64,000 nucleotides of DNA from Ascidia mentula. Taxonomy: Eukaryota > Chordata > Ascidiacea > Phlebobranchia > Ascidiidae. The first letter of the stretch is position 1. Every line of letters starts with the position of its first letter. The notes under the pieces were generated by a model. It saw only the letters and a list, made by a program, of their open reading frames with translations, searched no databases and was not told where the DNA came from. The stretch is taken from positions 6,895,001 to 6,959,000 of the forward strand of contig OX387202.1 in assembly GCA_947561715.1 (NCBI GenBank). The letters are read 5' to 3'. Made by a program: the position numbers and the translations under genes. Positions 6,838 through 43,287 of this stretch are shown here, piece by piece.

Positions 6838-7115
6838 TCTTGGTTCCCAACCTGTGGTACGCGATGGGCATTCAGGTTTATGCACAAAACATTTGACAAA
6901 TATGTTTGGCGCTAACAATCCAACATTGATTTGCAGAAATTATACTTATATATTTTCTAATATACGGTCTGGTTACTCAATGCAACCAAACCAAGGTTTA
7001 AAGATGGTTCTTCACTCATTTATGCCATATTTTTTAATCAAATCAATAGATGGTTCGTGGCAACTGTGCAGGACTTTGAAGTGATTCGCGATAGAATTCA
7101 GGTTGGGAACCACTG
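6838..7115 (+). mobile_element. hAT-like MITE, copy 1
   Basis: A 278-bp segment has inverted ends: GGTTCCCAACCTG at the left, and its complement, ending in GGGAACCACTG, at the right. A second copy in the opposite orientation lies at 23672-23951. CAGTGGTTCCCAACC-type ends are typical of non-autonomous hAT elements. A matching 8-bp target duplication is not evident at this copy, so the insertion is probably old. There is no transposase. Confidence 0.6.
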
Positions 7116-7978
7116 CCATGGGCGCCTGACTCCATAACCTTTATGGTTTTATCGGTGCCCATGCCATTTTATTTCCTTGTTTTTTGTTCGTCGCGTAGTT
7201 GCTTTTCTCGCAAAAATAAACATGATTTTGATTTAAAAAGTTATATTTCATTCGATGGTATTGGATATAAATAAAAATTTGCTTGTCAGGGCTGTTTGGG
7301 GTTTCGTCGGTACCCTGAACTTATGAATTATATGGGACATTAAAATATTTTGAATGGTGAGCAATTCAAAACAAAAAATGGTGATGACGAGCCGGATAAC
7401 TAAACGTGTGCAAAACACCCGCCATATATATTTTTTCGTAGGACCGCTGAAGCTAGAGACAGCTTTAAAATATCATGGTTTTTTGATGAACATTATAAAT
7501 AACGACGATTGATCAATCCAAAACCAGCACTGCCCTTTTGGTTTCAATTTGTGATAAAAAGAGCCTTCTTTGTTCAGGTTAGTGCTGCTTTCTTTTGAAA
7601 GAGCAACCTTCTGTAAGCCCTGGTTTTCGTCTGGTTGGTTGGCACAGAAACTCAAAACATTTACCCGTTAATTGTAAAATGATTAGAACAGAATACACTA
7701 CCTTATCAAAATTGCTGATGTATATATTGGTGTATCAGCGTCTGGTATGTTATCCGGTCCAACCTTGGAACAGTGGTGTAACCATGGCAATATTACTTTT
7801 TTAGGCTTAGTTTCATATTTCGCTGCATTTTTTCCTCTTGATTTGATATTTTTATTTCCCAAACGCAAATAAAAATTGAGGGTTGATACCACCCCCATGC
7901 CCCGGAAAGTAAAACAAATGTAACCTCATTTGGCCAATATATGCATACTGTTTGTGGTATTACTTATTTGATCCCTAT
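7116..7978. other. Gene-free stretch left of duplication copy 1
   Basis: AT-rich sequence with no convincing exon. Homology to the K2 flank starts at about 7979, so this stretch is outside the duplicated unit. Confidence 0.4.
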
Positions 7979-8427: not shown

Positions 8428-11400
8428 TTAAATGTGCTTTTGAGAAGAACACACAATTGATCTGTTTCTCTTAGTTTGTTCTAATACCAAACTTCTGTAG
8501 TCTTCGCTGATATCTTCAGCTTTAGTATAAATATCTACACCTTCCGCATAAAGCTTCAGGGATTCTTGAAACCGTTTTTGACGTCCATACACTGAACCAA
8601 GGTTGCAGACACAATGTCCTAACACGTGGTATTTGCAAGCATTATCACCAAACGTGGATTTCATCAAGTGAATGGCTTCTTCCAATATAGGCTCAGTGGA
8701 TTCAAGGTCAGGAATTGAAAGCAAGCAGTAAGCGGTAAACTGCATGCACCACGTTTGATTAATGACCCTGTCACGTTCGCTTAGGTCTTCCATGTTTTGA
8801 ATTTTTACCACAAAGCTCCTCATAATTGGAATGACATGTTGTTGCCACATCGACCGATCAATGGAGTTTGTTTCTCTCACATGTTTGTTGATTTCCTTCA
8901 AACCACCGAGGCACATTCTAACCCCCACTGCTGCATTTGATATGTTTGCATGACAAGCAAACATTTCAGCAGAAAGGTAATAGAAGGCCTGAGCTCGGTT
9001 GAAAAATGTTTTAAAGCGGTAATCGTCGGCTAATTTCTTCAATTCTTCTGCAGTTGATTGGAAGTTGTCGTGGAGAAGTTGAGATAGTTGATGCAAGTAC
9101 GAATTTGCATTTGACCAATTTCCCTTTTTCACGCTTTCATCGTATTTATTCAAAGCGTTTGGCAACTGTTTTTGGGCAACCGTCATATGAACTACAAGCA
9201 AACAAAACCAACATTTAAACGCAAAAACGTTTAGCTCAAATGAAAAGAAAAATACCTCCAGACTGCAGAGCTTCCAGCAAAGGAACTTTATTTCTGTATT
9301 TTGAAGTGCCTACAAACGACATACTTTATGAGCTGTAATATTAAAACTAAGCTAACGTTTCCATCACGTCCTAAAGATTGACATTGAGAAAAAGAAATAT
9401 AGGACAACGCAGAAGTAATGCCATGCTTTCGCATAGCAAGACGGAATCGCCCCACTGCGCAGGTCCTTTATATTTGGCGATCACAGCTCTAATATTCTGA
9501 TCATAAGGTTCACAGACTTCGCAATGCCTTGGCTGCGAAACCTGTGAACCTTATGAGGAAATATAGGATTGATGCACAGAAAGTGGGTATTAGTAGTACA
9601 TTAATATGTTTGATACCCCAAACAATTATAATGCATGCAGCCATCAAGCTGATCCCGCGCCGAACAACTTAATGTGTAAAAAAACACTTACCAAAGGTTT
9701 CTTTTGGAACCGTACTATCGTCGAATCGGGCAACCGCTTTAAAAAATAATAATTTAATTGTAAACATATAAAATTACTACAAGGTATCAAGCAGCTTAAT
9801 TAATTTATTGATAAACACAACACGTTAAAACGTTGTTCATTGAGTTGTAAAATTGCAAACAGCAAAAGGAAATACTTTTTTCTGTGTCTAATTTCACCCT
9901 GATATTCATGCAATTCTAACCTGAAACTTCTTTGGGGGGGGTTTCATCATTCGTTGCAGTTTCTCCTCCTGAATGAAATAACTGACATTATGGAACCCCA
10001 AAACTCAACTTTTAGATTACGAAACGCAAAGTGACAGTAGTGCATTGTTATAATTGCTACCATTAGCAGTCGTCTGCACAGATTACTCGATACTTTGGCC
10101 AAATATATTCGCGTTAAAGCATTTTTTGTATTCGTTGTTATAGCAACTGGTTGGTTATGCGACCCAACCTCGCAACAGTAATGTTAACATGACGTCATTA
10201 CCAGAAGTTTTCTTGGGAATGGTTTCGTTCCTCGATTCATTTTCTTCCCCTGAATGAAAGATTGATTATTTTTTGGAAACACAAAGAAATTACTCAATTA
10301 TAGTTGTTGCATCACATCGTACGCAAATTACAAAACAACGCCCTTTTTACCTATATGACGTCACATACAAATCATTCTGCTATGCTATGCAAAATAAGAT
10401 GGGAAGTTGTTTCACGTGTAATTTGCTTTAAAGCTGCTGTTAGGTTCATTATACTGCACTTCAGTTAACCGATTCTATTTGAATAGGATGGCAATGCAAA
10501 ATGAGTGATATCCTTATCCAACGAATTGACAAACTTACGAAAAAAGGGTTTGGGAATTGTGTTTCCATCATCTCCACCTTCTGCCAATCAAAATTTTAAA
10601 AAAAGATTTTTTTTAACAGGCAAAGAATGTTTGTTACGCGCTAAAAATTGCTCTAAACGTCTTTTTTGCCAATTCAAATACCTGCACAAAACTAAGAAGA
10701 CACTTACTATAGACTACTTCGGGAAGCCACGTATTGTCGATTCGAACAACAGCCTCAAAATCTAAATTTTACATGAAGTTTACTTTTGAACATGATTTTG
10801 TCTAGTGATGTATATACCTGTATGCAAAGTTGGACCCACCAGCGCTGTTGATGAGCTTTCTTGTCGTATTTCCACATCTAAAATATGTTTCAAATTTAAA
10901 TGTTTTGAAATATCTCAATCATAAACTGAAAAATTTAATACTTACTGGTAAAGGTTCTTGATTCGGACGAAAACTGATGTAAACGTGCCAGTCTTTGATG
11001 ATTTGAGTCAAAACACGGCGTTTCCACTTGCATGCCTCTGAGTGCAGTTGTGACCTGCTCAGCCACCACCACCGGATCTTGCTTGGTAAAGTAACTTTCA
11101 AATCTATCACGAACACTGATTATGGCTGGCCTTGAGGATGGGTTGGCATGCCAACATCTTTCCATATCACTTGCAAGAAGCCGCATGATTTCTTTATCCG
11201 CGTCACATAGCAACGCTTCAATTGCTGGGAATCCCAAACAATCTGGACGAAGACCATTTTTGACTGCTCTTTTGAAACCCTCGGGGTCACTGATGTTGAC
11301 AAAGGGCGGCTGGCGAGTCAACATTGTATAAAGAACCACTCCATAGCTGTAAACATCCTGTTCTTTCGAAGGTTTCAAATTGAAGTTGTCGAATTTTTCT

Positions 11401-12781
11401 GGTGCAGCAAATTGCATCGTCATGTTCCACCTTCGAGCGAGAGGTCGATCTGACGAAGATGTGGATCCTGTGTAGTTGGCGATCTCGGCACATCCGAAAT
11501 CCGATATTTTGCAGTGTAGCGTTATAGTGAAAAGCACATTCTCCGGTTTGAGGTCGCCGTGTATCAACCGCTTGTCGGAAAATATGTTGTGAATGACGGC
11601 AATGCCAGTTGCTATTTCAACGGCAAACCGAAGACGCAGGGTCATTCCAATGGTGACGTTTTCGTCAGCAAGTAGATCTCTGAGATTTCCACCTTGGTAA
11701 TACTCCATAACGATAGCCATGTTGAAAGGCCATTTTGCCCAGCCGTATACTCGCGCAATACAGTCATGGCTTGCTTGCTGAAGTAGGCTGAATTCCCTTT
11801 GTATCCTGTTCCATGCAAAATCATATGAATGAATTGGGTATTAATGAGCATAAAGTAGCAAATACGTTTTTCTGAACATCGTTAAACCCCTCTCTATCTA
11901 CAAACGGATTTCTTTCAATGCATTTTACCCGACAGACACCAAGAATTTATGGAGGAATGTGGAGGTTCACCTCTGGGTGTGCCCATGCGAAAGTCAAGAA
12001 TTGTTTTTGTAATTGTGCGCACTGTTGCCTGTCAATATGCGTAATTCCACGTTTCGTTTCGTCAGTGGGCGTTTCGTCAGTGGGCGTTTCGGCTTTTCAC
12101 GAGGCATGGACTGTCAGCGAGTTCCGCTGCAGCCTACTGTACATATGGGCTGTTGGCAGTCACATTGCAAAAAATTTGCCCGATAGTATTTAATCCATTT
12201 CGTTTATTCGGATTAACGTTTAGTCTGACTGTATCAAGTACAAGTTTTGAAAACTTACCGTCTCAATATGTTTGCCTTTTGTCTTCCGCCACCAGTAATA
12301 TTGAAGCACTTCATTGCAACAAGACTTAACACTTTATGTCGTCCAAGCAGTACAACGCCAAAACTTCCATTTCCAACCTCGCAAGAATCGACATCGAGCG
12401 AAATATCTACAGGGTCGAATTCCCGAAGCTAAAATTCAAAAAAATCTTTTGTAATGAAGTTTACTACAGAAATGACAATACTAATACATAAGCACTGCTG
12501 GTTGGTTTAAACTTTGAACTATGGTTCACTTGTACTAATTATATTTTAAAAGATTGCATGTAGCATCGTAGAAGTAGATTTCAACAAACGTTTAATGCTG
12601 TGAAAAATGCATTGAAATAATTGAGCTGCACCAATAACATGAAAGAATTCCTCTATTCATTAGGTTGTATATGCAATAGCCAATATATGCAATCAGTGGT
12701 TTTTTGATATTGCTATATTATCACTTAAAACTACAAGAAAAAGAATGAAGTCAATAAACTTACGCTCTCCAATTCATCCAT
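8428..12781 (-). CDS. TKL (RIPK/IRAK-like) protein kinase with microexon linker and C-terminal TPR-like domain, paralogue K1
   Basis: Eleven exons splice in frame to about 720 residues: 12764-12781, 12259-12428, 10946-11805, 10818-10877, 10708-10761, 10539-10580, 10202-10249, 9921-9968, 9692-9736, 9256-9309 and 8428-9191. The start ATG (MDELES) is conserved in all copies. Exon 2 holds the glycine loop GNGSFG and the VAMK lysine. Exon 3 holds HGDLKPEN, the DFG motif and the APE motif, so ATP and magnesium residues are present and activity is likely, although the HRD arginine is replaced by glycine. Exons 4-10 are tiny and encode a repeat-like linker. The last exon encodes about 250 mostly helical residues resembling TPR repeats. 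A cytoplasmic signalling kinase is likely; its partner is unknown. The C-terminus differs from K2 and K3 over the last 15-20 residues. Confidence 0.85.
9256..10877 (-). other. K1 microexon array (7 phase-1 exons)
   Basis: Seven exons of 60, 54, 42, 48, 48, 45 and 54 nt lie between the kinase and C-terminal exons. Every intron interrupts a codon after its first base, so each exon is a removable unit. Peptides carry a D/N-x-T-x-P-K theme, for example GNTIPK, NETIPK, DETPPK and DSTVPK. Confidence 0.8.
9404..9557. mobile_element. Small insertion with 10-bp target-site duplication, only in K1
   Basis: A 154-bp segment in a K1 intron is bracketed by direct repeats of GAAATATAGG (9394-9403 and 9558-9567). 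K3 has a single GAAATATAGG and no insert. The right end contains a near-palindrome (about 9503-9557) with arms reading CATAAGGTTCACAG and its complement. A SINE- or MITE-like element is likely; I do not recognise the family. Confidence 0.7.
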
Positions 12782-14343: not shown

Positions 14344-16319
14344 TTATTCGTATGGTGACTCATCTTTTTGCTGTCGCGTAGGTCGGCACAGTTTCATCAT
14401 CACGTTTTTCCACTGGTTCGTATACAAGAACGGGTTAAGGGCACTGTTAACTGGAAACAAAAACCCAATCATGTAATACGTCACGTATTTGCTAATAGAC
14501 GATTCATCTATGGACTTTGTGATCGCGATAAGTGAAATTGGAACCCAGCAAGCAAAGTCCGTCAACACAACAAGAAAGATACGACGATGCATTGCTTTAT
14601 TTTCTTGTTCTCGGGTGTTGTCTTCAGACGAACTACAACAAAAGCAGCTGCAAATGCCCCAACATTTCATAGTAGAACTTGCGTCGAAACCAGATGTTCG
14701 TTGTAGAATTATGGAGTAAGCGAGGGCCATGTAGAAGAAGGCAAAGAAGTTAAAACATACAATTTGCAGCAGGAACCCTAACGCCGGGTTTTGATCTGTG
14801 TTGAAGTAATTAGGAAAGCAAAAATTTGTTCCACTGTAGTAAGGATAAGTCTTCAATGTTGTCTTGTTAAAAAGTTGCATATCGTCTAAAAGCGAAAACA
14901 GTTCATCCCAAGAACGCGACATCGGTAATACGTACGAGCAGTTGACCTTCTTCAACATTGGTTTGACTATTTTTACTAGCTCGGAGTAAGTTGCTGTAAA
15001 CGGGAGATCGAAGCATTCATCTTCAACATACATGCTATTGTGAAACGTGTCTTTGTTTCCAAGTAAGGGGATGCACCCTAGAAACGTCCACACAATCCAA
15101 GATAGAACAAGGGGAAAGATAACAGGTTTGATTTGAACTATTTTGTACGGACAAAGTACGCTGTATAATCTACATGAAGTAATAAGTATTAAAGTTGTAA
15201 CTGAAACTTGACTAGAGACAAACGCAGTTATTCCAATTAAAGAACAAGTGTTACCAGCTTTCCATAGTTGATAATCCCGCGATGAAAGCGGTGTTCCAAT
15301 TTTAGAATACAGAACCATATGGGACAAGGTAATCAACCCCGTAAAAAAATCAGCAGTGCTCAAATTTAACAATAGGATGTTGTGGAGTGTCTTCACTTTT
15401 TCCATGATTCCAAACTTCTTGTATAGGAGAGAAATGCTATTGCACATTATAAGGACGTTGCCAAACAGAGCAAATACACCCAATGCCCATGTTAGAATGT
15501 AAGCAATGGCATACATCGTATCAAATTTAATTCGATCGTCTCTAGGATCCGGGGCAAATCCACAATTTAATAATTCGTTTGTTGAGATGCATTTGTTTGT
15601 CTTCACATAGTGTCCCAATATACCTTGAAACCTTAACGACTTGCATTCGCCAAATGAAACGTTTCGACAGATTTTGAACTCCTGGGGAAACTTTCCGTCG
15701 GTGGTGTTGCATAAGCTGATACATTGCCCAAAGGTTGTACCTTTATGAAATATAATATAAATAATTTAGGCGTATTGAACTAGTCGAATACTTTGGGACT
15801 ACTTTCAAGAAACAAAATTATGCATTTCTTACATGGACTCATGCAGATTTAAGCTTCACAATTTAACTTGTAATGTTTTGCTAAAAACACTCATTGGACA
15901 GGGTCATAGAGATTTATAATTAGTGCGTTTACATATGAAGGTACATTGGTTGCATGATCTTAAAACACTAAAATTCGTGTCAACCTCTACGAACCCTCAT
16001 TTTCGTTGTAACATTCTCACGTAGCCTAATTTAATCAGTGACTCGATTACGTTTAAAAACTTTTTGTAACAGTCAGTGCAAAGACATCCTACCATCAGGG
16101 TATTGATCTGTCATTTTTGCGTCCTGAAAAGGCGTCAATGAATGCTTCGTGGTCCTTTGCACATTTACGACCACCTATGACACTGACATTCTTTGGCAAA
16201 CTGTATAAAACTTTGCCCACCCGCTCTGAACAAGGAAGTAAAATAACAACCATTAAAGTGTCAAATTTTGATGGATTACGGTTTTGTGACTCACAGGTTT
16301 CTCTAATGAGTGATTGTGG
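14344..16319 (-). pseudogene. Class A GPCR, relaxin-receptor/GRL101-like, paralogue G1 (upstream exon out of frame)
   Basis: Two exons are recognised, 16093-16319 and 14344-15740, with a donor after CCTGATG and a phase-1 acceptor. The second encodes a Cys-rich stub and seven membrane helices. The TM2 aspartate (STADFF), the TM6 CWVP motif and the TM7 NSALNPFLYT motif agree with the LGR/RXFP/GRL101 group. TM3 ends in SCRLY, without DRY. The loop between TM4 and TM5 is about 93 residues. The first exon is 227 nt, against 229 nt in G2 and G3. This 2-nt deletion puts it out of frame with the intact 7TM exon, so G1 may be a recent pseudogene or may use another start. AATAAA overlaps the stop. The exons that would encode any signal peptide were not found. 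Confidence 0.7.
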
Positions 16320-19477: not shown

Positions 19478-21460
19478 TTATTGGTATACTGACTCATCTT
19501 TTTGCTGTCGCGTAGATCGACACAGTAGTTTCACAATCACGTTTTTCCATTGGTTCGTATACAAGAACGGGTTAAGGGCACTATTAACTGGAAACAAAAG
19601 CCCAATGATGCAATACGTCACGTATTTGCTAATAGACGATTCATCTATGGACTTTGTGATCGCGATAAGTGAAATTGGAACCCAGCAAGCGAAGTCCGTC
19701 AACACAACGAGAAATATACGACGATGCATTGCTTTATTTTCTTGTTCTCGGGTGTTGTCTTCAGGCGAACTACAACAAAAGCAGCTGCAAATGCCCCAAC
19801 ATTTCATAGTAGAACTTGCGTCGAAGCCAGATGTTCGTCGTAGGATTATGGAGTAAGCGAGGGCCATGTAGAAGAAGGCAAAGAAGTTAAAACATACAAT
19901 TTGCAGCAGGAACCCTAGCGCCGGGTTTTGATCTGTGTTGAAGTAATTAGGAAAGCAAAAATTTGTTCCACTGTAGTAAGGATAGGTCTTCAATGTTGTC
20001 TTGTTAAAAAGTTGCATATCGTCTAAAAGCGAAAACAGTTCATCCCAAGAACGCGACATCGGTAATACGTACGAGCAGTTGACCTTCTTCAACATTGGTT
20101 TGACTATTTTTACTAGCTCGGTGTAAGTTGCTGTAAACGGGAGATCGAAGCATTCATCTTCAATATACATGCTATTGTGAAACGTGTCTTCGTTTCCAAG
20201 TAAGGGGATGCACCCTAGAAACGTCCACACAATCCAAGATAGAACAAGGGGAAAGATAACAGGTTTGATTTGAACTATTTTGTACGGCCAAAGTACGCTG
20301 TATAATCTACATGAAGTAATAAGTATTAAAGTTGTAACTGAAACTTGACTAGAGACAAACGCAGTTATTCCAATTAAGGAGCAAAGGTTACCAGCTTTCC
20401 ATAGTTGATAATCCCGCGATGAAAGCGGTGTTCCAATTTTAGAATACAGAACCATATGGGACAAGGTAATCAACCCCGTAAAAAAATCAGCAGTGCTTAA
20501 ATTTAACAATAGGATGTTGTGGAGTGTCTTCACTTTTTCCATGATTCCAAACTTCTTGTATAGGAGAGAAATGCTATTGCACATTATAAGGACGTTGCCA
20601 AACAGAGCAAATACACCCAATGCCCATGTTAGAATGTAAGCAATGGCATACATCGTATCAAATTTAATTCGATCGTCTCTAGGATCCGGGGCAAATCCAC
20701 AGTTTAATAATTCGTTTGTTGAGATGCATTTGTTTGTTTTCACATAGTGTCCCAATATACCTTGAAACCTTAACGACTTGCATTCGCCAAATGAAACGTT
20801 ACGACAGATTTTGAACTTCTGGGGAAACTTGTCGTCGGTGGTGTTGCATAAGCTGATAAACTGCCCAAAATTTGCACCTTTATGAAATATAATATAAATA
20901 ATTTAGGCGTATTGAACTAGTCGAATACCTTGAGACTACTTTCAAGAAACAAAATTATGCATTTTTTGCATAGACTAATGCAGATTTAAGCTTCACAATT
21001 TAACTTGTAATGTTGCTAAAACACTCACTGGCCAGCGTCATAGAGCTTTACAATTAGTTTGTTTACATATGAAGGTACATTGGTTGCATTATCTTAAAAC
21101 CCTAAACTTTGGGTCAACCTTTACGAACCTACATTTTCGTTGTAACATGCTTTTGTTATAGCCTAATTTAATCAGTGACTCGATTACGTTTAAAATCTTT
21201 TTCGATAACAGTCAATGTAAAGATATCCTACCATCAGGGTATAGATCTGTCATTTTTGCGTCATGCAAAGTCGACACTAAATGCTTCGTGGGGTCCTTTA
21301 CACTTTCACGACCACCTATGACACTGATATTCTTTGGCAAACTGTATAAAAGTTTGCCTTCCCGCTTTAAACAAGGAAGTAAAATCACAACCATTGAAGT
21401 GTCAAATTTTGAAGGATGACGGTTTTGTGACTCACAGGTTTCTATAATGGGTGATTGTGG
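19478..21460 (-). CDS. Class A GPCR, relaxin-receptor/GRL101-like, paralogue G2
   Basis: Exons 21232-21460 (229 nt, acceptor after TATAG, phase 0 to phase 1) and 19478-20877 join in frame. The 7TM exon encodes an extracellular stub with several cysteines and seven helices with the TM2 aspartate, TM6 CWVP and TM7 NPFLY. TM3 has SCRLY in place of DRY, and extracellular loop 2 is about 93 residues with several N-glycosylation sites (NCS, NKT). One stub cysteine kept in G1 and G3 (GQC) is phenylalanine in G2 (GQF). Plasma-membrane receptor; the ligand is unknown. LRR or LDLa domains of related receptors were not found upstream, so the 5' end is incomplete. A candidate first exon ending MLLQPQTRH lies near 21744-21770 and is weakly supported. 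Confidence 0.75.
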
Positions 21461-25430: not shown

Positions 25431-28400
25431 ATGGATGAATCGAAGAGCGTAAGTTTATTAAGTTTATTCTTACCTTGTAGTTTAATATAGGCTATTGCAC
25501 ATACAACCTGATTTAGTAAGGATTTTTTTATGTAATTGGTGCAGCTCAATTATTTCAATGCATTTTACACAGTAATTTAACAACCGTATGTTGAAATATA
25601 TTTTTTCGATGCTACATGGCATCTTTTAAAATATAATTAGTACAAGTGAACCATAGTTCAAAGTTTAAACCAACCTGTTCTCATATGTTGTTATTTCTGT
25701 AGTAAACTTCGTCCCAAAAGATTTTCTTGAATTTTAGCTTCGGGAATTCGACCCTGTAGATATTTTGCTCAATGTCGATTCTTGCGAGGTTGGAAATGGA
25801 AGTTTTGGCGTTGTACTGCTTGGACGACATAGAGTGTTTAGTCTTGTTGCAATGAAGTGCTTCAATATTACTGGTGGTGGAAGACAAAGGGCCAACATAG
25901 TGAAGCAGTAAGTTTTAAAAACTTGCACTTGATACAGCCAGACCATACTCATTAACACGAATTTCATTCATAAGATTTTGCATATAACAGGATACAAAGG
26001 GAATTCAGCCTACTTCAGCAAGCAAGCCATGACTGTATTGCGCGAGTATACGGCTGGGCAAAATGGCCTTTCAACATGGCCATTGTTATGGAATATTACC
26101 AAGGTGGAAATCTCAGAGATCTACTTGCCGACGAAAACGTCACCATTGGAATGACCCTGCGTCTTCGGTTTGCCGTTGAAATAGCAACTGGCATTGCCTT
26201 CATTCACAACATATTTTCCGACAAGCGGTTGATACATGGCGACCTCAAACCTGAGAATGTGCTCTTAACTATCTGGCTACACTGCAAAATATCTGATTTC
26301 GGATGTGCCGAGATCGCCAACTACACAGGATCCACATCTTCGTCAGATCGACCTCTCGCTCGAAGGTGGAACATGACGATGCAATTTGCTGCGCCAGAAA
26401 AATTAGACAACTTCAATTTGAAACCTTCGAAAGAACAGGATGTTTACAGCTATGGAGTGGTTCTTTATACAATGTTGACTCGCCAGCCGCCCTTTGTCAA
26501 CATCAGCGACCCCGAGGGTTTCAAAAGAGCAGTCAAAAATGGTCTTCGTCCAGATTGTTTGGGATTCCCAGCAATTGAAGCGTTGCTATGTGACGCGGAG
26601 AAGGAAATCATGCGGCTTCTTGCAAGTGATATGGAAATATGTTGGCATGCCAACCCATCCTCAAGGCCAGATATAATCAGTGTTCGTGATAGATTTGAAA
26701 GTCACTTTACCAAGCAAGATCCGGTGGTGGTGTCTGAGCAGGTCTCAACTGCACTCAGAGGCATGCAAGTGGAAACGCCGTGTTTTGATACAAACCATCA
26801 CCGACTGGCACGTCTACACCAGTTTTCATCTGAATCAAGAACCTTTACCAGTAAGTATTAAATTTTTCATCTTATGATTGAGATATTTCAGAACATTTGA
26901 ATTTGAAACACTTTTTAGATGTGGAAATACGGCAAGAAAGCTCATCAACAGCGCTGGTGGGTCAAACTTTGCATACAGGTATATACATCAGCACAAGACA
27001 AAATCATGTTCAAAAGTAAACTTCATGTAAAATTTGAATCGACAATGCGTGGCTTCCCGAAGTAGTCTATAAGTGTAGAAAGCCATAATAATTATTGAGA
27101 ATTGCAGACAGGGTGTACACATTGTTTCGACCTGCAAGGTCTCATTAGTGCAGCTGTTCACTGTGGCACTGCGCTAGCTTTTACACTAGCAGGCACACAG
27201 ATTTCCACTTTGTGGTACCTTTCGTTTAACGTCGATCCGTTGGGTACCAAACTAGGGACAAAACAACAAAGTCGAACCACCGTTGATCGCACCTTGGCCA
27301 AACAACTGCTTGGTAACCCGAACCGGTAGCACTATCGGATTCCAAGCAGTTACCCATAGTCAGAACAATCTTGTCAGTTAAATATGGGTCTTGTCGGCTG
27401 GAATTCTGTGTGCTTGCTAGTGTAAAGGCTAGGACAATGCCACAGTAAACAGCTGCACTGATGAGATCTTGCAGGTCGAAACAGTGCTGTGCGTGCACCC
27501 TGTCTGCAGCCCTCTTTAGTAAGTTGTTTACTAGTTTTGTGCGAGTGTATATGAATTGGCAAAACAATTTTTTCAAACTTTCAGAAGGTGGAAATGATGG
27601 AAACACAATTCCCAAATCCTTTTTTCGTAAGTTTGTCAATTGGTTGGAATGAATTCGTTTCTGAGGCTACAGGCACAATTTTTTACGAAGGGCCGTAGGA
27701 TGCCGACCACACGCCTAGTTTATCGCTGATATGCAATAAACACTGTAATAAAATTCGAGATTTGAGTTTGACAAACGATTTCTTTGAACCAGTGGTGCAA
27801 AAAAATGGCCCGCGTTTGGCAAGCGGCTGGTCGCAAAGTGGCACGCGAGCTTTCATCTAGAATGTAAATCTATTTTATAAATTATTCTTTGCAAGCCTGT
27901 TTTAAGACAGCACCCTTAAAAAAACTTCAACTTGTTTCAACATGTTTGGCACGCGATAGATAGCAAAAAATTTTAAAAAGTGTAATTTGCGTACGATGTA
28001 ATGTAACACTAAAATTAAGTAATTACGATGTTATAGAATGATTTGTATGGTATTATGACGTCATATAGGTAAAAAGGGCGTTGTGTTGTAATTTGCGTAC
28101 GATGTGATGCAACAACTTTAATTGAGTAATTTCTTTGTGTTTCCAAAAAATAATCAATCTTTCATTCAGGGGAAGAAAATGAATCGAGGAACGAAACCAT
28201 TCCCAAGAAAACTTCTGGTAATGACGTCACTTACTGTTACGAAATTGGGTTTCTTGACCAACCGGTTGCTATAACAACGAATGCAAAAAAATGCTGTGCG
28301 TTTCATTTCGTGATATGCGAATATATTTGGTCAAAGTATTGAGTAATTTGTTTAGACGGCCGCTAAATGTAGCAATTATAACAATGTACTACTGTCACTT

Positions 28401-30210
28401 TGCAGATGTTTTGGAAAGTATCAGCACATATCCAAAAGGTGTCATAGGTGGGTATGACTAGCTTAACGTTCCGTAACCAAAAATTGTGTTTTGGGTTCCA
28501 TAATATCAATTTTTCATTCAGGAGGAGAAACTACAACGAATGATGAAACCCCCCCCAAAGAAGTTTCAGGTTAGAATTGCATGAATATCAGGGTGAAATT
28601 AGACACAGAAAAAAGTATTTTCTTCGCCTGTTGGCAATTTTACAACTCAATGAACAACTTTTTATCGTGTTGTGTTTATCAATATATTAATTAAGCTGCT
28701 TGATCCCTTGTGGTAATTTTAAATGTTTACAATTAACATCGAATAGAATTTTTGTTTTTTTAAAGCTGTTGCCCGATTCGACGATACTACGGTTCCAAAA
28801 GAAACCTTTGGTAAGTGTTTTAGACATAAAGTTGTTCGACCGGGATCAGCTTCATTTTAATTGGTATCAAATATATTAATGTGCTACTAATAAAATTTGT
28901 GAAAACATTTCAGTAGTTCAGCGTGCCAGCCACACCGCACCCAAGTTATTAGTTCCAAGTAAGTTAGGTTAAAGGTTAGCTTGTTGCTGTCTTTAATTTC
29001 TGGGTCCTACTTCCAACTAGGAGTGTACTTGCAGTCAATGTTCGGCAAAGTAACAACCGATTCTTTCGAAGAAGTCATGGGTGCAAACCTTGGTCGTAAA
29101 AAATCATCCGCACTTTTTGTATTTTCGCTGTAACGACTTAATTCTCTTCCAGTGTGATTATCCGAGCGCTAAATTCGTTAAAGTTTGTATCGCAACCCAA
29201 TTTTTGTGCGTCAATCCCAACCCGGATACGTGTATTTCTTATTAGGACGTGACAGAAAAGTGAGCTTAGTTTTAATATTACAGCTCACAAAATATGTTGT
29301 TTGCAGGCACTTCAAAATACAGAAATAAAGTTCCTTTGCTGGAAGCTCTGCAGTCTGGAGGTATTTTTCTATTTATTTGAGCTAAACGGTTTTGCGTCTA
29401 AATGTTGGTTTTTATTTGCCTGTAGGTCAAATGACGGTTGCCCAAAAGCAGCTGCAAGACACTTTGAATAAATACGATGAAAGCGTGAAAAAGGGAAATT
29501 GGTCAAATGCAAATTCGTGCTTGCATCAACTATCTCAACTTCTTCACGACAACTTCCAATCAACTGCAGAAGAATTGAAGAAATTAGCCGACGATTACCG
29601 CTCTAAAAAAAATTTCAACCGGGCTCAGGCCTTCTATTACCTTTCTGCTGAAATGTTTGCTTGTTATGCAAACAAATCAAATGCAGCAGTGGGGATTAGA
29701 ATGTGCCTCGGTGGTTTGAAGGAAATCAACAAACATGTGAGCGAAACAAACTCCTTTGATCGGTCGATGTGGCAACAACATGTTATTCCAATTATGAGGA
29801 GATTTGTGGTAAAAATTCAAAACATGGAAGACCTAAGCGAACGTGACAGGGTCATTAATCAAACGTGGTGCATGCAGTTTATTACCTACAGCTTGCTTTC
29901 AATTCCTGACTTGGATTCTACTGGGCCGATATTGGAAGAAGCCATTCACTTGATGAAATCCACGTTTGGTGATGATGCTTACAAATACCACGTGTTAGGA
30001 CATTGTGTCTCCAACCTTGCCTTAGTGTATAGATGTCAAAAACGTTCTCAGGAATCCCTGGAGCTTTATGCGGAAGCTGTTGATATTTACACTAAGGCTG
30101 AGGATATCAGCGAAGAATACAGAAGTATCGTAATAGAACAAACAAAGAGGGACATATCAAAAGAGATTTCTCCTCAGAGGCTTAAGAGAATGCTTTTTAC
30201 ACAGTCGTAA
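25431..30210 (+). CDS. TKL (RIPK/IRAK-like) protein kinase with microexon linker and C-terminal TPR-like domain, paralogue K2
   Basis: Twelve exons: 25431-25448, 25738-25907, 25991-26850, 26919-26978, 27585-27626, 28170-28217, 28406-28447, 28522-28569, 28766-28810, 28914-28958, 29307-29360 and 29426-30210. They splice in frame to about 738 residues. The kinase domain (about residues 20-310) has GNGSFG, VAMK, HGDLKPEN, DFG and APE. The linker is the microexon array. The C-terminal 260 residues are helical and TPR-like. Compared with K1 and K3, the 54-nt fifth exon has lost its acceptor and donor, and two exons (28406-28447 and 28914-28958) are present only here. All are phase 1-1, so the frame holds. 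Likely an intracellular signalling kinase; the pathway is not shown by the sequence. Confidence 0.85.
26919..29360 (+). other. K2 microexon array (8 phase-1 exons)
   Basis: Exons of 60, 42, 48, 42, 48, 45, 45 and 54 nt. The third and fifth (28170 and 28522) are alike in coding sequence and in the intron just before them (both end TTTCATTCAG), which indicates tandem exon duplication. Core peptides are GNTIPK, NETIPK, STYPK, DETPPK, DTTVPK and HTAPK. Confidence 0.8.
27104..27507. mobile_element. Foldback MITE with arms of about 100 bp, only in K2
   Basis: A 404-bp insert begins GCAGACAGGGTG and ends with its complement. Arms (about 27104-27210 and 27400-27507) are roughly 80% complementary over their whole length and flank a spacer of about 190 bp. 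K1 and K3 lack it at the same intron position. It has no coding capacity. It lies just after the dead fifth-exon remnant of K2. Confidence 0.75.
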
Positions 30211-30741: not shown

Positions 30742-33700
30742 ATGCGAAACCTAAATACAACGCAACCAATCGGGGCACAACAAACACAACTTCGCGATTG
30801 GGCGTCTTACGGCACCAGTGAGCCATTACGACCACCTGACGCACCACTACCTTCTTATCAGAAAGTACATCGGTCTTACGTCCCCATTTTGCCCTTTACT
30901 TTGTGGCTGGTTGTCATCCACCACAAGCACAACATCAGGGATGGCGAAATTACCATGTTCATTGGCCCACTTCGTTCTGGGCATTAGCGTAGGCAGGTAC
31001 TCCCGTGACCATTTCCGCCAAGTATTGCACCTGGCGCCAGCGATTACGGTGGTAACAGTTCTTTCTTGTGAATAGTTCAGGGGACATATTCGGCGCTGCA
31101 CGTTGCAGCAGTACATGATTTGGTGTAAGTGGCTCCTCATCCTTCGGATGGAACGTTACCGAACCAAAAGACGGGAGTTCAGCATTGCCTCGACCTCCAC
31201 CATCAGAGTTCTCAGATTCTCATCAGATAAAGTCTGCTCCGCAAGCAGTTATTAAGAATCTTGCGCACAGAGCGTATCATCCGCTCCCATACCCCACCCA
31301 TGTGGCTGGCGGTAGGAGGATTGAAGCTCCACGCAATCTCACGTTGTTGCAAATTTTCTTGAATCTGCTTTTGGTTCCACTTATGCAGTTCTTCACGCAG
31401 TATGCGCTCAGCTCCAACAAAGTTCGTACCGTTGTCACTGAAGATTTGGTCTGGCCGTCCACGACGACCGATGAACCGTCGAAGGGCTCCGATGAACGAG
31501 TCAGTCGACAATAAATCAGCTATCTCAATAAGTGCTGGTGAAAAAACAAGTAAAGATGCATCCGTACCTCTTCACCTCACTTCGTCCTTGATTAACAAGA
31601 AAGGGGCCAAAGTAGCCAACACCGACCACTGAGAAAGGTGGCTTGTTAACCTGCAGCCTTGCAGAAGGAAGATCCGCCATGATCTGTTTTCCCGGGGATC
31701 CGTTTCTTTGTCGGCACGATACACACTTGCCGAGTACACGTCAAACTGCCACTTAGTAGCGTTGTCGTAAGGACGAGCACGTGTGTCCCATTCCGACATG
31801 ACCAACCTCATGCTGCTGTATGATCACCAGGTCCGTAACCCGATGGGTGTATGGAAGAATGATCGGATGCTTCACATTAAAGTCGACAACTGCACGCTCA
31901 AGTCTTCCACCAACCCTCATAACTCCGTCAACAATATTTGGATTAAGTTTTCCTAGAGCTCTCCTTTTCTTTCGTAGACGAATTGCTTCGCCCTTTGCCT
32001 TTGACATTGCGGCGATAATTTCTGGGAAACTGCGTTCTTGCACATGTTTTACAATTTCGAGCTCAGCAACTTTAAGTTCGGCAACGGCCAATTGTCCAAA
32101 AGTTACTTCGTACTTTTCAGGAAACTTCTTTGACATCAACATCAACTTGAACCGGAGCAGCCAACCGACAGCCTTTTTCAGCCGATTCCAAGATGAATAT
32201 TTCGCAATAAATCGATCTATTGCGGATTCACGAACGACCAGACAAACTGTTTGAGCTTCTTTCTTCACCGGAAAAAACTTGATTGGCAAAGACGACAAGT
32301 CAGGAGAAGAAGGCCACGCATTTTCTTTCTTCCAAAGAAACTGAGGACCAGTGAGCCATCTGCTGGAGCTAAGGAATTTTTTTACGCTTAGCCCACGAGA
32401 CGTTTCATCGGCTGGATTTACCTTTGTACCGACGTGCCTCCATTGACCCGGACGTGAGACATTTTCGACTGTGGCCAGACGATTTGCCACGAACACTGGA
32501 AATCGCTTGTTGCTGTTGCGAATGCTTTGAAGAACTGTAGTCGAATCTGTCCAGAAAACAGGTTGACATTCGACCAGTCGAAGCTCTTTCCTTGCAAGTT
32601 GATCCAGTCTGGCTGCAACAACTGCCGCTCTCAACTCCAGACGTGGGATCGAACACGTCTTCAAGGGGGGAACACGTGCTTTGCCTACAACGAACGAACA
32701 GTAAATATGTTCTCGGTCGTCCATTAATCTCAAATAGCTGTGGACGACGAATCTGCAAAATGGTGGAATTCTGTTTTGTGCACCTTACCGAAATCACGCG
32801 GCTTCATGCATTGGGGTAAAACGACTTTTTCCAAGAGCGGGAGTTGCTGCAACCATTTTGCTCACGTTTCGGAGTCCTTGTCGGAGAGTACGTCATCCCA
32901 CCCAAGCTGTTTTCTGCAAAGTTCTCTTTGCATCTTCTTGGCCACTGCGATCACAGATGCTGCAAAACCAAGAGGGTCATACAATGAAGCCACCACAGAC
33001 AGGATTGCCCTTTTGTTGAAGGTTTTCGGTTGCTTTTCATCGACGTTAAAACCGAATTCACCAACGAAAACCAAAAACACTTTCGCACGAGGAACTCGTA
33101 AGGTTCAGCTCCTTAACTGATTTTGCCCGTTCCATTTCATCAATGGACGCAAGAACTCGCTCGCTGTTACTTATCCACTTGGTCTGGCGAAACCTTTTCC
33201 TTTTAAGAAGTACACAAATACCTTCGACCAACTGCACTGCTTCCGCTTCAGTCGGCACAGACTTTAGACAGTCGTCGACGTAGAAATTCTTGATGACAGT
33301 CTCGACGACCTTGCGCGACCTTTACAATCCTCAGCCACTTGCCTGAGGCAGAAACTCGCACTGAAGGGGGAAGAAGCTGTCCCGAACAAATGAACCAGCA
33401 TCCTGTGATCGATGGGCTTCTTCGCCACATTGCCACCAGGCCACTACAAAAACGGAAAACGACTTTACACGCATCTGATGGTACATGGCCTCCACGTCGG
33501 CAACGAGAGCTATACTTTCCATTCGGAATCTTGAAATCCTGAAGTAAAACGTCATTCAGCGACCGACCGCGACACTTGGCGGCGCAGTCCAAAACTACCC
33601 GCACATTACCGGGCTTGTGAGGATTTGTAAGGATGGTGCGGCAGGTACCACGCTGATTCTCTAAACTGTTCTTAATCCGGAACTTCTTCAGCATAGCCTT

Positions 33701-35504: not shown

Positions 35505-38500
35505 TTACGACTGTGTAAAAAGCATTCTCTTATGCCTCTGAGAAGAAATCTCTATTGATATGTCCCTCTTTGTTTGTTCTATTACGATACTTCTGTATTC
35601 TTCGCTGATATCCTCAGCCTTAGTGTAAATATCAACAGCTTCCGCATAAAGCTTCAGGGATTCCTGAGAACGTTTTTGACATCTATACACTAAGGCAAGG
35701 TTGGAGACACAATGTCCTAACACGTGGTATTTGCAAGCATCATCACCAAACGTGGATTTCATCAAGTGAATGGCTTCTTCCAGTACAGGCCCAGTAGAAT
35801 CCAAGTCAGGAATTGAAAGCAAGCTGTAGGTAATAAACTGCATGCACCACGTTTGATTAATGACCCTGTCACGTTCGCTTAGGTCTTCCATGTTTTGAAT
35901 TTTTACCACAAAGCTCCTCATAATTGGAATGAGATGTTGTTGCCACATCGACCGATCAAAGGAGTTTGTTTCGCTCACATGTTTGTTGATTTCCTTCAAA
36001 CCACCGAGGCACATTCTAATCCCCACTGCTGCATTTGATTTGTTTGCATGACAAGCAAACATTTCAGCAGAAAGGTAATAGAAGGCCTGAGCCCAGTTGA
36101 AAAAATTTTTGGAGCGGTAATCGTCGGCTAATTTCTTTAACTCTTCAGCAGTTGATTGGAAGTTGTCGTGGAGAAGTTGAGATAGTTGATGCAAGTACGA
36201 ATTTGCATTTGACAAATTTCCCTTTTTCACGCTTTCCTCGTATTTATTCAAAGCGTTTGGCAACTGTTTTTGGGCAACCGTCATATGAACTACAAGCAAA
36301 CAAAAACCAACATTTAAACGCAAAAACGTTTAGCTCAAATGAAAAGAAAAATACCTCCAGACTGCAGAGCTTCCAGCAAAGGAACTTTATTTCTGTATTT
36401 TGAAGTGCCTGCAAACAACATACTTTGTGAGCTGTAATATTTAAACTAAGCTCACGTTTCCATCACGTCCTAAAGATTGACAGAAACATTGAGAAAATCC
36501 TAATAAGAAATATAGGATTGATGCACAGAAAGTGGGTATTAGTAGTACATTAATATGTTTGGTACCCCAAACAATTAAAATGCATGCAGCCATCAAGCTG
36601 ATCCCGGGCCGAACAACTTAATGTGTAAAAAAACACTTACCAAAGGTTTCTTTTGGAACCGTACTATCGTCGAATCGGGCAACCGCTTTAAAAAATAATA
36701 ATTTTATTTAATTTTATTTATTTGTAAACATATAAAATTACTACAAGGGATCAAGCAGCTTAATTAATTTATTGATAAACACAACACGTTAAAACGTTGT
36801 TCATTGAGTTGTAAAATTGCAAACAGCAAAAGGAAATACTTTTTTCTGTGTCTAATTTCACCCTGATATTCATGCAATTCTTACCTGAAACTTTTTTGGG
36901 CGTGGTTTCATCATTCGTTGCAGTTTCTCCTCCTGAATGAAATAACTGACATTATGGAACCCCAAAACTCAACTTTTAGATTACGGAACGCAAAGTGACA
37001 GTAGTGCATTGTTATAATTGCTACCATTAGCAGTCGTCTGCACAGATTACTCGATACTTTGGCCTAATATATTCGCGTTAAAGCATTTTTTGTATTCGTT
37101 GTTAAAGCAACTGGTTGGTTATGCGACCCAACCTCGCAACAGTAATGTTATTATGACGTCATTACCGGAAGTTTTCTTGGGAATGGTTTCGTCCCTCGAT
37201 TCATTTTCTTCCCCTGAATGAAAGATTGATTATTTTTTGGAAACACAAAGAAATTACTCAATTAAAGTTGTTGCATCACATCGTACGCAAATTACAATAC
37301 AACGCCCTTTTTACCTATATGACGTCATAATACCATACAAGTCATTCTGCTATGCTAGGCAAAATAAAATGGGAAGTTGTTTCACGTGTAATTTGCTTTG
37401 AAGTTGCTGTTAGGTTCATTATACTGCACTTCAGTTAACCGATTCTATTTGAATAGGATGGCAATGCAAAATGAGTGATATCCTTATCCAACGAATTGAC
37501 AAACTTACGAAAAAAGGGTTTGGGAATTGTGTTTCCATCATCACCTTGTGCCAATCAAAAGTTGTCAATTTTAATTTTTTTTAACAGGCAAAGAATGTTT
37601 GTTACGCGCTAAAAATTGCTCTAAACGTCTTTTTTGCCAATTGAAATACCTGCACAAAACTAAGAAGACACTTACTATAGACTACTTCGGGAAGCCACGT
37701 ATTGTCGATTCGAACCACAGCCTCAAAATCTAAATTTTACATGAAGTTTTACTTTTGAACATGATTTTGTCTGGTGATGTATATACCTGTATGCAAATTT
37801 TGACCCACCAGCGCTGTTGATGAGCTTTCTTGTCGTACTTCTACATCTAGAATGTGTTTCAAATTCAAATGTTTTGAAATATCTCAATCATAAGCTGAAA
37901 AATGTAATACTTACTGGTAAAGGTTCTTGATTCGGACGAAAACTGATGTAAACGTGCCAGTCTTTGATGGTTTGAGTCAAAACACGGCGTTTCCACTTGC
38001 ATGCCTCTGAGTGCAGTTGTGACCTGCTCAGCCACCACCACTGGATCTTGCTTGGTAAAGTAACTGTCAAATCTATCACGAACACTGATTATATCTGGCC
38101 TTAAGGATGGGTTGGCATCCCAACATCTTTCCATATCACTTGCAAGAAGCCGCATGATTTCTTTATCCGCGTCACATAGCAACGCTTCAATTGCTGGGAA
38201 TCCCGAACAATCTGGACGAAGACCATTTTTGACTGCTCTTTTGAAACCCTCGGGGTCGCTGATGTTGACAAAGGGTGGCTGGCGAGTCAACATTGTATAA
38301 AGAACCACTCCATAGCTGTAAACATCCTGTTCTTTCGAAGGTTTCAAATTGAAGTTGTCGAATTTTTCTGGTGCAGCAAATTGCATCGTCATGTTCCACC
38401 TTCGAGCGAGAGGTCGATCTGACGAAGATGTGGATCCTGTGTAGTTGGCGATCTCGGCACATCCGAAATCCGATATTTTGCAGTGTAGCGTTATAGTGAA

Positions 38501-39741
38501 AAGCACATTCTCCGGTTTGAGGTCGCCGTGTATCAACCGCTTGTCGGAAAATATGTTGTGAATGACGGCAATGCCAGTTGCTATTTCAACGGCAAACCGA
38601 AGACGCAGGGTCATTCCAATGGTGACGTTTTCGTCAGCAAGTAGATCTCTGAGATTTCCGCCTTGGTAATATTCCATAACGATGGCCATGTTGAAAGGCC
38701 ATTTTGCCCAGCCGTATACTCGCGCAATACAGTCATGGCTTGCTTGCTGAAGTAGGCTGAATTCCCTTTGTATCCTGTTCCATGCAAAATCATATGAATG
38801 AAATGCGTATTAATGAATATAAAGTAGCAAATAAGTTTTTCTGAACATCGTTAAACCCCGCACTATCTACAAACGGATTTCTTTCAATGCATTTCACCTG
38901 ACAGACACCAAGAAATTGTGGAGGAATGTGGAGGTTCACCTCTGGGTGTACCCATTGCGAAAGTCAAGAATTGTTTTTTTAATTGTGCGCACTGTTGCCT
39001 GTCAATATGCGTAATTCCACGTTTCGTTTCGTCAGTGGGCGTTTCGGCTTTTCACGAGGCATCGACTGTCAGCGAGTTCCGCTGTAGCCTACTGTACATA
39101 TGGGCTGTTGGCAGTCACATTGCAAAAAAATGACCCAATAGTATTTAATCCATTGCGTTTATTCGGATTAACGATTAGTCTGACTGTATCAAGTACAAGT
39201 TTTTGAAACTTACCGCCTCACTATGTTGGCCCTTTGTCTTCCACCACCAGTTATACTGAAGCACTTCATTGCAACAAGACTTAACACTTTATGTCGTCCA
39301 AGCAGTACAACGCCAAAACTTCCATTTCCAACCTCGCAAGAATCAACATCGAGCAAAATATCTACAGGGTCGAATTCCCGAAGCTAAAATTCAAAAAAAT
39401 CTTTTGTAATGAAGTTTACTACAGAAACAACAATACTAATACATAAGCACTGGGTGGTTTAAACTTTGAACAATGGTTCACTTGTACTAATTATATTTTA
39501 AAAGATTGCATGTAGCATCGTAGAAATAGATTTCAACAAACATTTACTGCTGTGTAAAATGCATTGAATTAATTGAGCTGAACCAATAACATGAAAGAAT
39601 TCCTCTATTCATTAGGTTGTATATGCAATAGCCAATATATGCAATCAGTGGTTTTTTGATATTGCTATATTATCACATTATCACTTAAAACTACAAGAAA
39701 AAGAATGAAGTCAATAAACTTACGCTCTCCAATTCATCCAT
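35505..39741 (-). CDS. TKL (RIPK/IRAK-like) protein kinase with microexon linker and C-terminal TPR-like domain, paralogue K3
   Basis: Eleven exons: 39724-39741, 39214-39383, 37915-38774, 37787-37846, 37676-37729, 37509-37544, 37166-37213, 36885-36932, 36641-36685, 36355-36408 and 35505-36289. They splice in frame to about 725 residues. Kinase motifs GNGSFG, HGDLKPEN, DFG and APE are intact. The C-terminal 260 residues are the helical, TPR-like domain, nearly identical to K2 in its last residues (MLFTQS). The sixth exon is 36 nt here and 42 nt in K1: the old acceptor AG is mutated to AC, and the next AG (after CACA) gives an in-frame exon two residues shorter. It is transcribed away from G3's promoter side and on the same strand. 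Confidence 0.85.
36355..37846 (-). other. K3 microexon array (7 phase-1 exons)
   Basis: Exons of 60, 54, 36, 48, 48, 45 and 54 nt. Same set as K1, with one acceptor shift and a T-P-K variant (DETTPK) in place of DETPPK. Confidence 0.8.
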
Positions 39742-41307: not shown

Positions 41308-43287
41308 TTATTCGTATGGTGACTCATCTTTTTGCTGTCGCGTAGATCGACACAGTTTCATCATCACGTTTTTCCACTGGTTCGTATACAAGAACGGGTT
41401 AAGGGCACTGTTAACTGGAAACAAAAACCCAATGATGTAATACGTCACGTATTTGCTAATAGACGATTCATCTATGGACTTTGTGATCGCGATAAGTGAA
41501 ATTGGAACCCAGCAAGCGAAGTCCGTCAACACAACGAGAAATATACGACGATGCATTGCTTTATTTTCTTGTTCTCGGGTGTTGTCTTCAGACGAACTAC
41601 AACAAAAGCAGCTGCAAATGCCCCAACATTTCATAGTAGAACTTGCGTCGAAACCAGATGTTCGTTGTAGAATTATGGAGTAAGCGAGGGCCATGTAGAA
41701 GAAGGCAAAGAAGTTAAAACATACAATTTGCAGCAGGAACCCTAACGCCGGGTTTTGATCTGTGTTGAAGTAATTAGGAAAGCAAAAATTTGTTCCACTG
41801 TAGTAAGGATAAGTCTTCAATGTTGTCTTGTTAAAAAGTTGCATATCGTCTAAAAGCGAAAACAGTTCATCCCAAGAACGCGACATCGGTAATATGTACG
41901 AGCAGTTGACCTTCTTCAACATTGGTTTGACTATTTTTACTAGCTCGGTGTAAGTTGCTGTAAACGGGAGATCGAAGCATTCATCTTCAACATACATGCT
42001 ATTGTGAAACGTGTCTTTGTTTCCAAGTAAGGGGATGCACCCTACAAACGTCCACACAATCCAAGATAGTACAAGTTGAAAGATAACAGGTTTGATTTGA
42101 ACTATTTTGTACGGCCAAAGTACGCTGTACAATCTACATGAAGTAATAAGTATTAAAGTTGTAACTGAAACTTGACTGGAGACAAACGCAGTTATTCCAA
42201 TTAAAGAACAAGTGTTACCAGCTTTCCATAGTTGATAATCCCGCGATGAAAGCGGTGTTCCAATTTTAGAATACAGAACCATATGGGACAAGGTAATCAA
42301 CCCCGTGAAAAAATCAGCAGTGCTTAAATTTAACAATAGGATGTTGTGGATCGTCTTTACTCTTTCCATGACTGCAAACTTCTTGTATAGGAGAGAAATA
42401 CTATTGCACATTATAAGAACGTTGCCAAACAGAGCAAATACACCCAATGCCCATGTTATAATGTAACCAATGGTATACATCGCATCAAATCTAATACGAT
42501 CTTCTCTAGGATCCGGGGCAAATCCACAGTTTAATAATTCGTTTGTTGAGATGCATTTGTTTGTCTTCACATAGTGTCGCAATATACCTTGAAACCTTAA
42601 CGACTTGCATTCGCCAAATGAAACGTTTCGACAGACTTTGAACTTCTGGGGAAACTTGTCGTCGGTGGTGTTGCATAAGCTGGTACATTGACCAAAATTT
42701 GCACCTTTATGAAATATAATATAAATAATTTGGGCGTATTGAACTAGTCGAATACCTTGAGACTACTTTCAAGAAACAAAATTATGCATTTTTTGCATAG
42801 ACTCATGCAGATTTGAGCTTCACAATTTAACTTGTAATGTTGCTAAAACACTCACTGGCCAGCGTCATAGAGCTTTACAATTAGTTTGTTTACATATGAA
42901 GGTACATTGGTTGCATTATCTTAAAACCCTAAACTTTGGGTCAACCTTTACGAACCTACATTTTCGTTGTAACATGCTTATGTTATAGCCTAATTTAATC
43001 AGTGACTCGATTACGTTTAAAATCTTTTTCGATAACAGTCAATGTAAAGGTATCCTACCATCAGGGTATAGATCTGTCATTTTTGCGTCCTGCAAAGTCG
43101 ACACTAAATGCTTCGTGGGGTCCTTTACACTTTCACGACCACCTATGACACTGATATTCTTTGGCAAACTGTATAAAAGTTTGCCTTCCCGCTTTAAACA
43201 AGGAAGTAAAATCACAACCATTGAAGTGTCAAATTTTGAAGGATGACGGTTTTGTGACTCACAGGTTTCTATAATGGGTGATTGTGG
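41308..43287 (-). CDS. Class A GPCR, relaxin-receptor/GRL101-like, paralogue G3
   Basis: Exons 43059-43287 (229 nt) and 41308-42704 join in frame with the same phases as G2. Seven helices carry the TM2 aspartate, TM6 CWVP and TM7 NPFLY motifs, with SCRLY at the end of TM3 and a loop of about 93 residues between TM4 and TM5. The helix 1-2 region carries changes not seen in G1 or G2 (for example AVMERVKTIHN against GIMEKVKTLHN), while the rest is nearly the same. Plasma-membrane receptor; ligand unknown. Upstream exons were not identified with confidence. A minus-strand candidate first exon (MLLQPQTRH, donor at about 43570) joins in phase but lacks a signal peptide. Confidence 0.75.

Follow-up and report, generated by a model that had tools for sequence, protein, structure and literature searches.

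Repeated T-x-P-K exons between the kinase and C-terminal domains of RIPK1-like genes in Ascidia mentula: a candidate linker of variable motif number

The predicted gene K2 lies on the forward strand at positions 25431-30210 of a 64,000-nucleotide stretch of the ascidian Ascidia mentula, here called the window (C70:6895001-6959000, within the 195.8-Mb assembly; C70, or OX387202.1, is chromosome 6 of kaAscMent1.1, PMC11109543). Between the protein kinase and the C-terminal domain of K2 stands a row of very small exons, most of which encode variants of one short peptide, T-x-P-K. The locus raises the question of what such an array could do for a kinase, how it came about, and whether it is peculiar to this kinase group. 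The models of K2, of its neighbours K1 and K3 and of further paralogs are predictions read from genomic DNA; positions are those of the window unless otherwise indicated.

A symmetric exon array in the linker of K2

The 12 predicted exons of K2 join into a single open frame of 738 amino acids. Exon 1 (25431-25448) has the predicted start codon, exon 2 (25738-25907) encodes the N-lobe of the kinase with its VAMK lysine, and exon 3 (25991-26850) the RIPK1-like kinase domain with HGD and DFG. Exon 12 (29426-30210) includes the stop codon and encodes a C-terminal domain that is all-helical and has one clear TPR. The eight small linker exons, 4 to 11, lie between them and measure 60, 42, 48, 42, 48, 45, 45 and 54 nucleotides, in that order. 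The original prediction of eight exons of 42-60 nucleotides bounded by phase-1 introns was borne out at every position: all eight are bordered by AG and GT, are a multiple of three nucleotides long and have phase 1 at both ends. Also correct was its claim that any subset could be spliced in frame, since the phases are symmetric and no stop codon can form at a junction because none of exons 3-11 ends in T.

Six of the eight linker exons carry T-x-P-K: exon 5 (27585-27626, NTIPK), exon 6 (28170-28217, NETIPK), exon 7 (28406-28447, STYPK), exon 8 (28522-28569, DETPPK), exon 9 (28766-28810, DTTVPK) and exon 10 (28914-28958, HTAPK). Exons 4 (26919-26978) and 11 (29307-29360) do not. The longer motif initially proposed for most of the exons, D/N-x-T-x-P-K, therefore keeps its T-x-P-K part, but has D or N two residues ahead of T in only three of the six; the repeat does not include exons 4 and 11. 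When the eight exons were taken together with the fifth exon of K1, the best three-residue pattern common to them was T.PK, found in six of the nine; in 5000 within-exon shuffles the best pattern was shared by at most three exons in 4999 cases and by four in one. The register is also nearly constant, T.PK standing three residues from the exon end in five exons and four in the sixth. By sequence, then, it is the T-x-P-K exon that is repeated, with exons 4 and 11 as its fixed neighbours; exon 11 shows no amino-acid change across 10 copies (the junction codon being uncounted). The only RHIM-like stretch seen, ALVG in exon 4, was discarded, as paralogs have A or D in place of its G.

Exons 6 and 8 are paired duplicates. 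Their local DNA alignment, flanks included, gave z of about 12, with the lowest p that 1000 dinucleotide shuffles allow, and exon 9 aligned with exon X, the fifth exon of K1 (10708-10761, reverse strand), with z of about 12 and p at the same limit. In both pairs the likeness extends some 30-40 nucleotides into the upstream intron, out of 45 nucleotides of flank supplied; other pairs are much weaker (z 5.3 for exons 5 and 10, 2.9 for exons 5 and 6). This likeness, reaching into the introns, makes the exon duplication real, and growth of the array by duplication, proposed from the same two pairs, is supported. The boundary first given to exon X needed correction: its frame is kept by an AG nine bases upstream, which makes it 54 nucleotides long, and not by the nearer AG. 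In K2 exon X survives as a remnant (27033-27071) that has lost both acceptor and donor.

Literature text searches turned up no described example in this kinase group, in agreement with the original prediction, nor any publication about T-x-P-K exon arrays. They did return an S/T-P-X-K motif, which is distinct from T-x-P-K.

Exon sets among paralogs of the C70 cluster

K1 (about 8428-12781) and K3 (about 35505-39741), both on the reverse strand, are paralogs that share the plan of K2. K1 has exon 4 (10818-10877), exon X with its upstream acceptor, copies of exons 5 (10539-10580), 6 (10202-10249), 8 (9921-9968), 9 (9692-9736) and 11 (9256-9309), and a C-terminal exon with a shorter tail (8428-9191). 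In K3 we find exon X (37676-37729) and copies of exons 5 (37509-37544, 36 nucleotides, with a shifted acceptor), 6 (37166-37213), 8 (36885-36932), 9 (36641-36685) and 11 (36355-36408). Exon X is intact in both, and exons 7 and 10 are present in neither.

Within 165 kb (C70:6768701-6933773) there are 11 copies of the kinase, counting K2, and in a DNA search of the genome the matches to the array exons (8 and 10) came from this cluster only. Kinase and C-terminal exons are open in seven copies (K1, K2, K3, A31, A56, A63 and A95). The remaining four are damaged: A69 and A08 have a stop inside the kinase exon; A39 lacks the acceptor of exon 2, there is a gap of 16 bases towards the end of its kinase exon, and its C-terminal exon is split; A22 has lost nearly the whole array. 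Six of the seven open genes have exons 4, X, 5, 6, 8, 9 and 11, that is, four T-x-P-K exons plus X, and K2 has exons 4 to 11, of which six carry T-x-P-K, with X reduced to a remnant. K2 and the damaged A69 and A39 are the only copies with exons 7 and 10; exon 10 was counted absent in the other six open genes, where 23 aligned bases look like intron misplaced by the aligner. Kinase and tail are 84-96% alike between genes with four and genes with six motifs.

As aligned, the open genes have 49 exon copies with intact borders, length and frame, to which K3 exon 5 can be added, its acceptor having moved in frame. Exon X of K2 is the only array remnant among them. All other broken copies, of exons X, 5, 7 and 9, belong to the four damaged genes, and exon 5 of A69 and A39, flagged as broken, has an in-frame acceptor a few bases further on.

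Motif number might instead be tuned inside a single gene, if cells selected exon subsets by regulated alternative splicing, the model put forward in the original prediction. That every subset would be in frame without junction stops, that the exons are small, and that several donors differ from GTAAGT (gtatat, gtaatg, gtgggt, gttaga, gtattt) would all suit such regulation. The variation observed, however, is between genes, by exon gain and loss, and by a crude score the donors overlap in strength with those of exons 1-3. We regard regulated splicing as possible, at a level clearly short of probable.

T-x-P-K exons in a second kinase subfamily

Equivalent exons, matching in register and phase, were found behind divergent kinases (about 45% identity) on contigs C1, C52 and C67. 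The richest locus, L051 on C1, has seven predicted phase-1 exons in 3 kb behind a kinase of 44% identity; six are of 51 nucleotides and one of 60, they are 55-86% identical to one another, and all seven encode D-x-T-x-P-K followed by L or V. The six loci scanned on C52 and C67 have one to three T-x-P-K exons each. No such exon was seen on the reverse strands of these seven loci, and the scan found no symmetric T-x-P-K exons at L023-L032 (C72, a distant part of C70, C69 and C2). Across the scanned loci, reverse-strand T-x-P-K exons occurred at L016 only, where they are a paralog's own array. As a control, the exon finder recovered five or six of the 7-8 linker exons in each of the seven open C70 genes, with 1-4 extra readings per gene; on their reverse strands it gave no reading in six genes and four in K2.

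A DNA pattern for D-x-T-x-P-K-L plus a donor had 27 exact matches in the genome and none when reversed; each of the 27 is preceded, at a distance of 0.4-3.8 kb and on its own strand, by a kinase of the family. With one mismatch allowed, 34 of 41 matches fell in the clusters, against 11 control matches. The motif alone (T-x-P-K-x-x-x-G plus gtaag) matched 44 times, 37 of them within the clusters, which cover 0.54% of the genome; its reversed control matched 25 times genome-wide, so that single matches outside the clusters mean nothing. Pattern matches are paralogs and not independent, so we attach no probability to this share. Under a profile built from the second-subfamily exons, C70 exons 5-10 and X outscored their own shuffles (p between 0.0002 and 0.025, uncorrected), which exons 4 and 11 did not (p 0.60 and 0.91); because the training exons had been chosen for T.PK, these p-values mainly restate motif and register.

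The array is real in the kinase group for which it was first described, but that scope was too narrow, as this kind of exon recurs in a divergent subfamily. A tree of 22 kinase sequences, its root not fixed, places both T-x-P-K groups and L027, which has no T-x-P-K exons, together on the same side of a split (support 0.965); the order within that side has support 0.199. A single origin of the T-x-P-K exons with later loss is possible from this topology.

Constraint on the motif and drift around it

When all 11 genes are compared at those exon copies that are intact, five changes at the 18 codons for T, P and K are silent and none alters the amino acid, and the other 119 codons had 22 amino-acid and eight silent changes (at 273 and 84 sites, respectively). 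For this difference Fisher p is 0.004, in a test that was chosen after the motif was known, counts alignment columns rather than events on a tree, and includes the damaged genes. The ratio of amino-acid-changing to silent differences per site (pN/pS) was 0.53 for the array, 0.34 for the kinase exon and 0.43 for the C-terminal exon. Over all pairs of 10 genes (A22 excluded), introns had seven times as many short indels per kb as exons (9.8 vs 1.4). Substitutions reached 14.0% in introns and 5.5% in exons of the 10 genes, part of this excess coming from poorly aligned intron stretches.

These numbers bear on two other explanations. The first is that only linker length counts and the peptide sequence matters little. 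Residues outside the core do drift almost freely, as the counts above illustrate, and in CaMKII linker length by itself is reported to alter autophosphorylation (PMC7141811). A mere spacer, however, would not be expected to keep T, P and K constant in every intact C70 copy, nor to show the same motif, in nearly the same register and phase, in a subfamily with kinases of about 45% identity, and we find this explanation rather unlikely. The second holds that phase-1 exon copies pile up because nothing removes them, the motif being a mark of recent copying. Exon gain and loss inside 165 kb and the pN/pS of the array would fit, but core codons were kept while their neighbours drifted, broken repeat exons are confined to damaged genes (with the exception of exon X in K2), and the motif is found in two subfamilies. 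Such neutral accumulation appears to us distinctly improbable.

Copy number as a possible setting of valency and length

The reading that we favour, with a confidence somewhat above even, is that these are short-linear-motif exons whose copy number sets both the valency and the length of the linker. Each C70 repeat exon, its T-x-P-K standing three residues (in one case four) ahead of the donor, would add 14-16 residues to a probably disordered linker that joins a RIPK1-like kinase to a C-terminal interaction domain. As every intron here is of phase 1, exons could be copied, lost or skipped harmlessly, and from the same symmetry it follows that copy number would set motif count and linker length together. 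The predicted count is six in K2, four in each of the other open C70 genes, and one to seven in the seven second-subfamily loci that were scanned. T-x-P-K may be a docking or a phospho-acceptor site, T being the likely acceptor; one partner would bind it several times over, and copy number would translate into avidity. Conserved T, P and K amid free neighbours would be the pattern of such a motif, and the linker is in composition more disorder-prone than the kinase or the C-terminal domain. We infer that the array exons are present in mRNA, that the linker is disordered and that the motif has a docking role.

Several points weigh against this reading. Only two exon sets exist among the open C70 genes, and the array exons are predictions from genomic sequence. 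Known ligand motifs such as 14-3-3 modes, TRAF, SUMO and CDK S/T-P-x-K match some copies at most. Most array residues are nearly free of constraint, and in a close pair the difference between exons and introns is small (K1-K3 substitutions, 10/317 in exons vs 35/1043 in introns); with such nearly equal rates, constraint must be concentrated on the T/P/K core. To these should be added the limits given above on the Fisher test, the profile, the non-independent pattern matches and the motif-only control. Gene pairs with four or six motif copies, together with a subfamily with one to seven, offer a natural series for measuring directly how motif number affects a signalling kinase.

The C-terminal domain

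The K2 C-terminal domain has one TPR at about residues 193-226. TPR_12 was matched by all 24 members of the domain set at E up to 1, with a best value of 2e-6. Elsewhere on C70, L037 (C70:9016900-9019600) contains an open stretch of 772 amino acids with a long low-complexity part followed by this domain, and no kinase was seen in the stretch.

A structural comparison points elsewhere: in VIA-align, the best 50 rows for the K2 C-terminal model (md808bbdf4b79) were all 14-3-3 chains. A phospho-reader in one chain could thus be imagined, in which the kinase phosphorylates T and a 14-3-3-like C-terminal domain binds pT-x-P in cis or in trans. High Z values are, however, common in mostly helical models, and in Foldseek the kinesin light chain TPR ranked first, with 14-3-3 chains in the following rows. 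By sequence the domain is a TPR: for none of the 24 members does 14-3-3 appear among the 25 commonest of their 41 families at E up to 1 (member 1 has no 14-3-3 match at that threshold), and profile comparison with hhalign gave 92% for the consensus TPR and 0.07% for a two-sequence 14-3-3 alignment. Homology to 14-3-3, strong in VIA-align as a resemblance and unsupported by sequence, was rejected and is retained here as no more than a minor alternative. The genome search for the C-terminal domain, a lower bound, lists no match in the C1, C52 and C67 clusters that have T-x-P-K exons, and two C52 loci carry Kelch motifs instead. Ligands of 14-3-3 proteins usually have arginine at -3 or -4, which is the case in two of the six K2 motifs. 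A reader of this kind seems to us very improbable.

The kinase domain and its expansion

The protein kinase encoded by exons 2-3 of K2 matches Pfam Pkinase at E 4e-40, and its closest relative among solved structures is RIPK1 (E 6e-33). Among the best 60 rows of a search that matched 2267 sequences, the first 29 were RIPK1, 4, 2 or 3, and the 30th was TNNI3K. The catalytic residues, judged by sequence, are in place in all seven open copies (VAMK, HGDLKPEN, DFG). A Pfam scan of K2 at E up to 1 found no death domain, CARD or ankyrin.

The genome has at least 136 matches to the K2 kinase exon and at least 147 to the C-terminal domain. Family matches are mainly clustered on C1, C2, C69, C70 and C52, and C67 and C72 are also in the family range. 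The tails differ between clusters, being TPR-like on C70, C69 and C2 and Kelch on C52, where the family kinases of the two loci examined (L017 and L021) are followed on the coding strand by Kelch motifs. On C2, L026 has four successive C-terminal-domain stretches behind one kinase (2558-7700 of the locus, forward strand). Also on C2, near 15.929 Mb, L028 contains a Peptidase_C14 match, of the caspase family (8836-9237 of the locus, forward strand, E 8e-8), about 6.8 kb behind a kinase; a single kinase-caspase gene is possible there.

These matches suggest an unusually large expansion of RIPK1-like kinases, in large clusters of a tunicate genome. In amphioxus, lineage-specific RIP kinase copies with odd new domain partners have been described (PMC9573974), and a sea cucumber survey reported no RIPK1-4 (PMC11507063). 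Our literature searches turned up no RIP kinase expansion of comparable size. A large kinase expansion with several tail types could be an immune repertoire. More speculatively, and with only a small chance in our view, the exons may be a portable valency module of a huge, fast-evolving family of innate-immune kinases: kinases with TPR and Kelch tails would share one docking partner, copy number would be tuned per gene and possibly by splicing, and either a shared adaptor or the protein's own C-terminal domain would read phospho-T.

Other elements of the window

A repeat element with 88-nucleotide inverted arms (27107-27507, forward strand) lies in intron 4 of K2 and of two paralogs, and has many matches genome-wide. 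Pao-type retroelement peptidase matches occur between K2 and K3 (31756-32733) and beyond K1 (1895-3697), both on the reverse strand. Three frames of 424-425 amino acids for rhodopsin-type seven-transmembrane receptors (14347-15618, 19481-20755 and 41311-42582, reverse strand), all matched by one profile, are interleaved with the kinase copies as if co-duplicated.

Comparison with known systems

K2 resembles RIPK1 in its kinase, for which RIPK1 is the closest of the solved structures, and differs from it in the missing death domain, CARD and ankyrin (by Pfam at E up to 1) and in the number of kinase matches in the genome, at least 136. For the array itself, the nearest analogues appear to be the titin PEVK region and the CaMKII linker. 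PEVK is likewise an array of short repeat exons subject to duplication and loss, in which splicing is reported to vary length (PMC6469411). That array is a mechanical spring, however, whereas the present one, seen at the genomic level, would lie in a kinase linker, with few exons, one short conserved core and many paralogs. In CaMKII, a disordered linker of variable length joins the kinase to a C-terminal hub, and isoforms differ mainly in that linker (PMC7141811); the kinase and hub are unrelated to those described here, the sections consulted mention no repeated motif, and the variation that we describe in Ascidia mentula is between genes.

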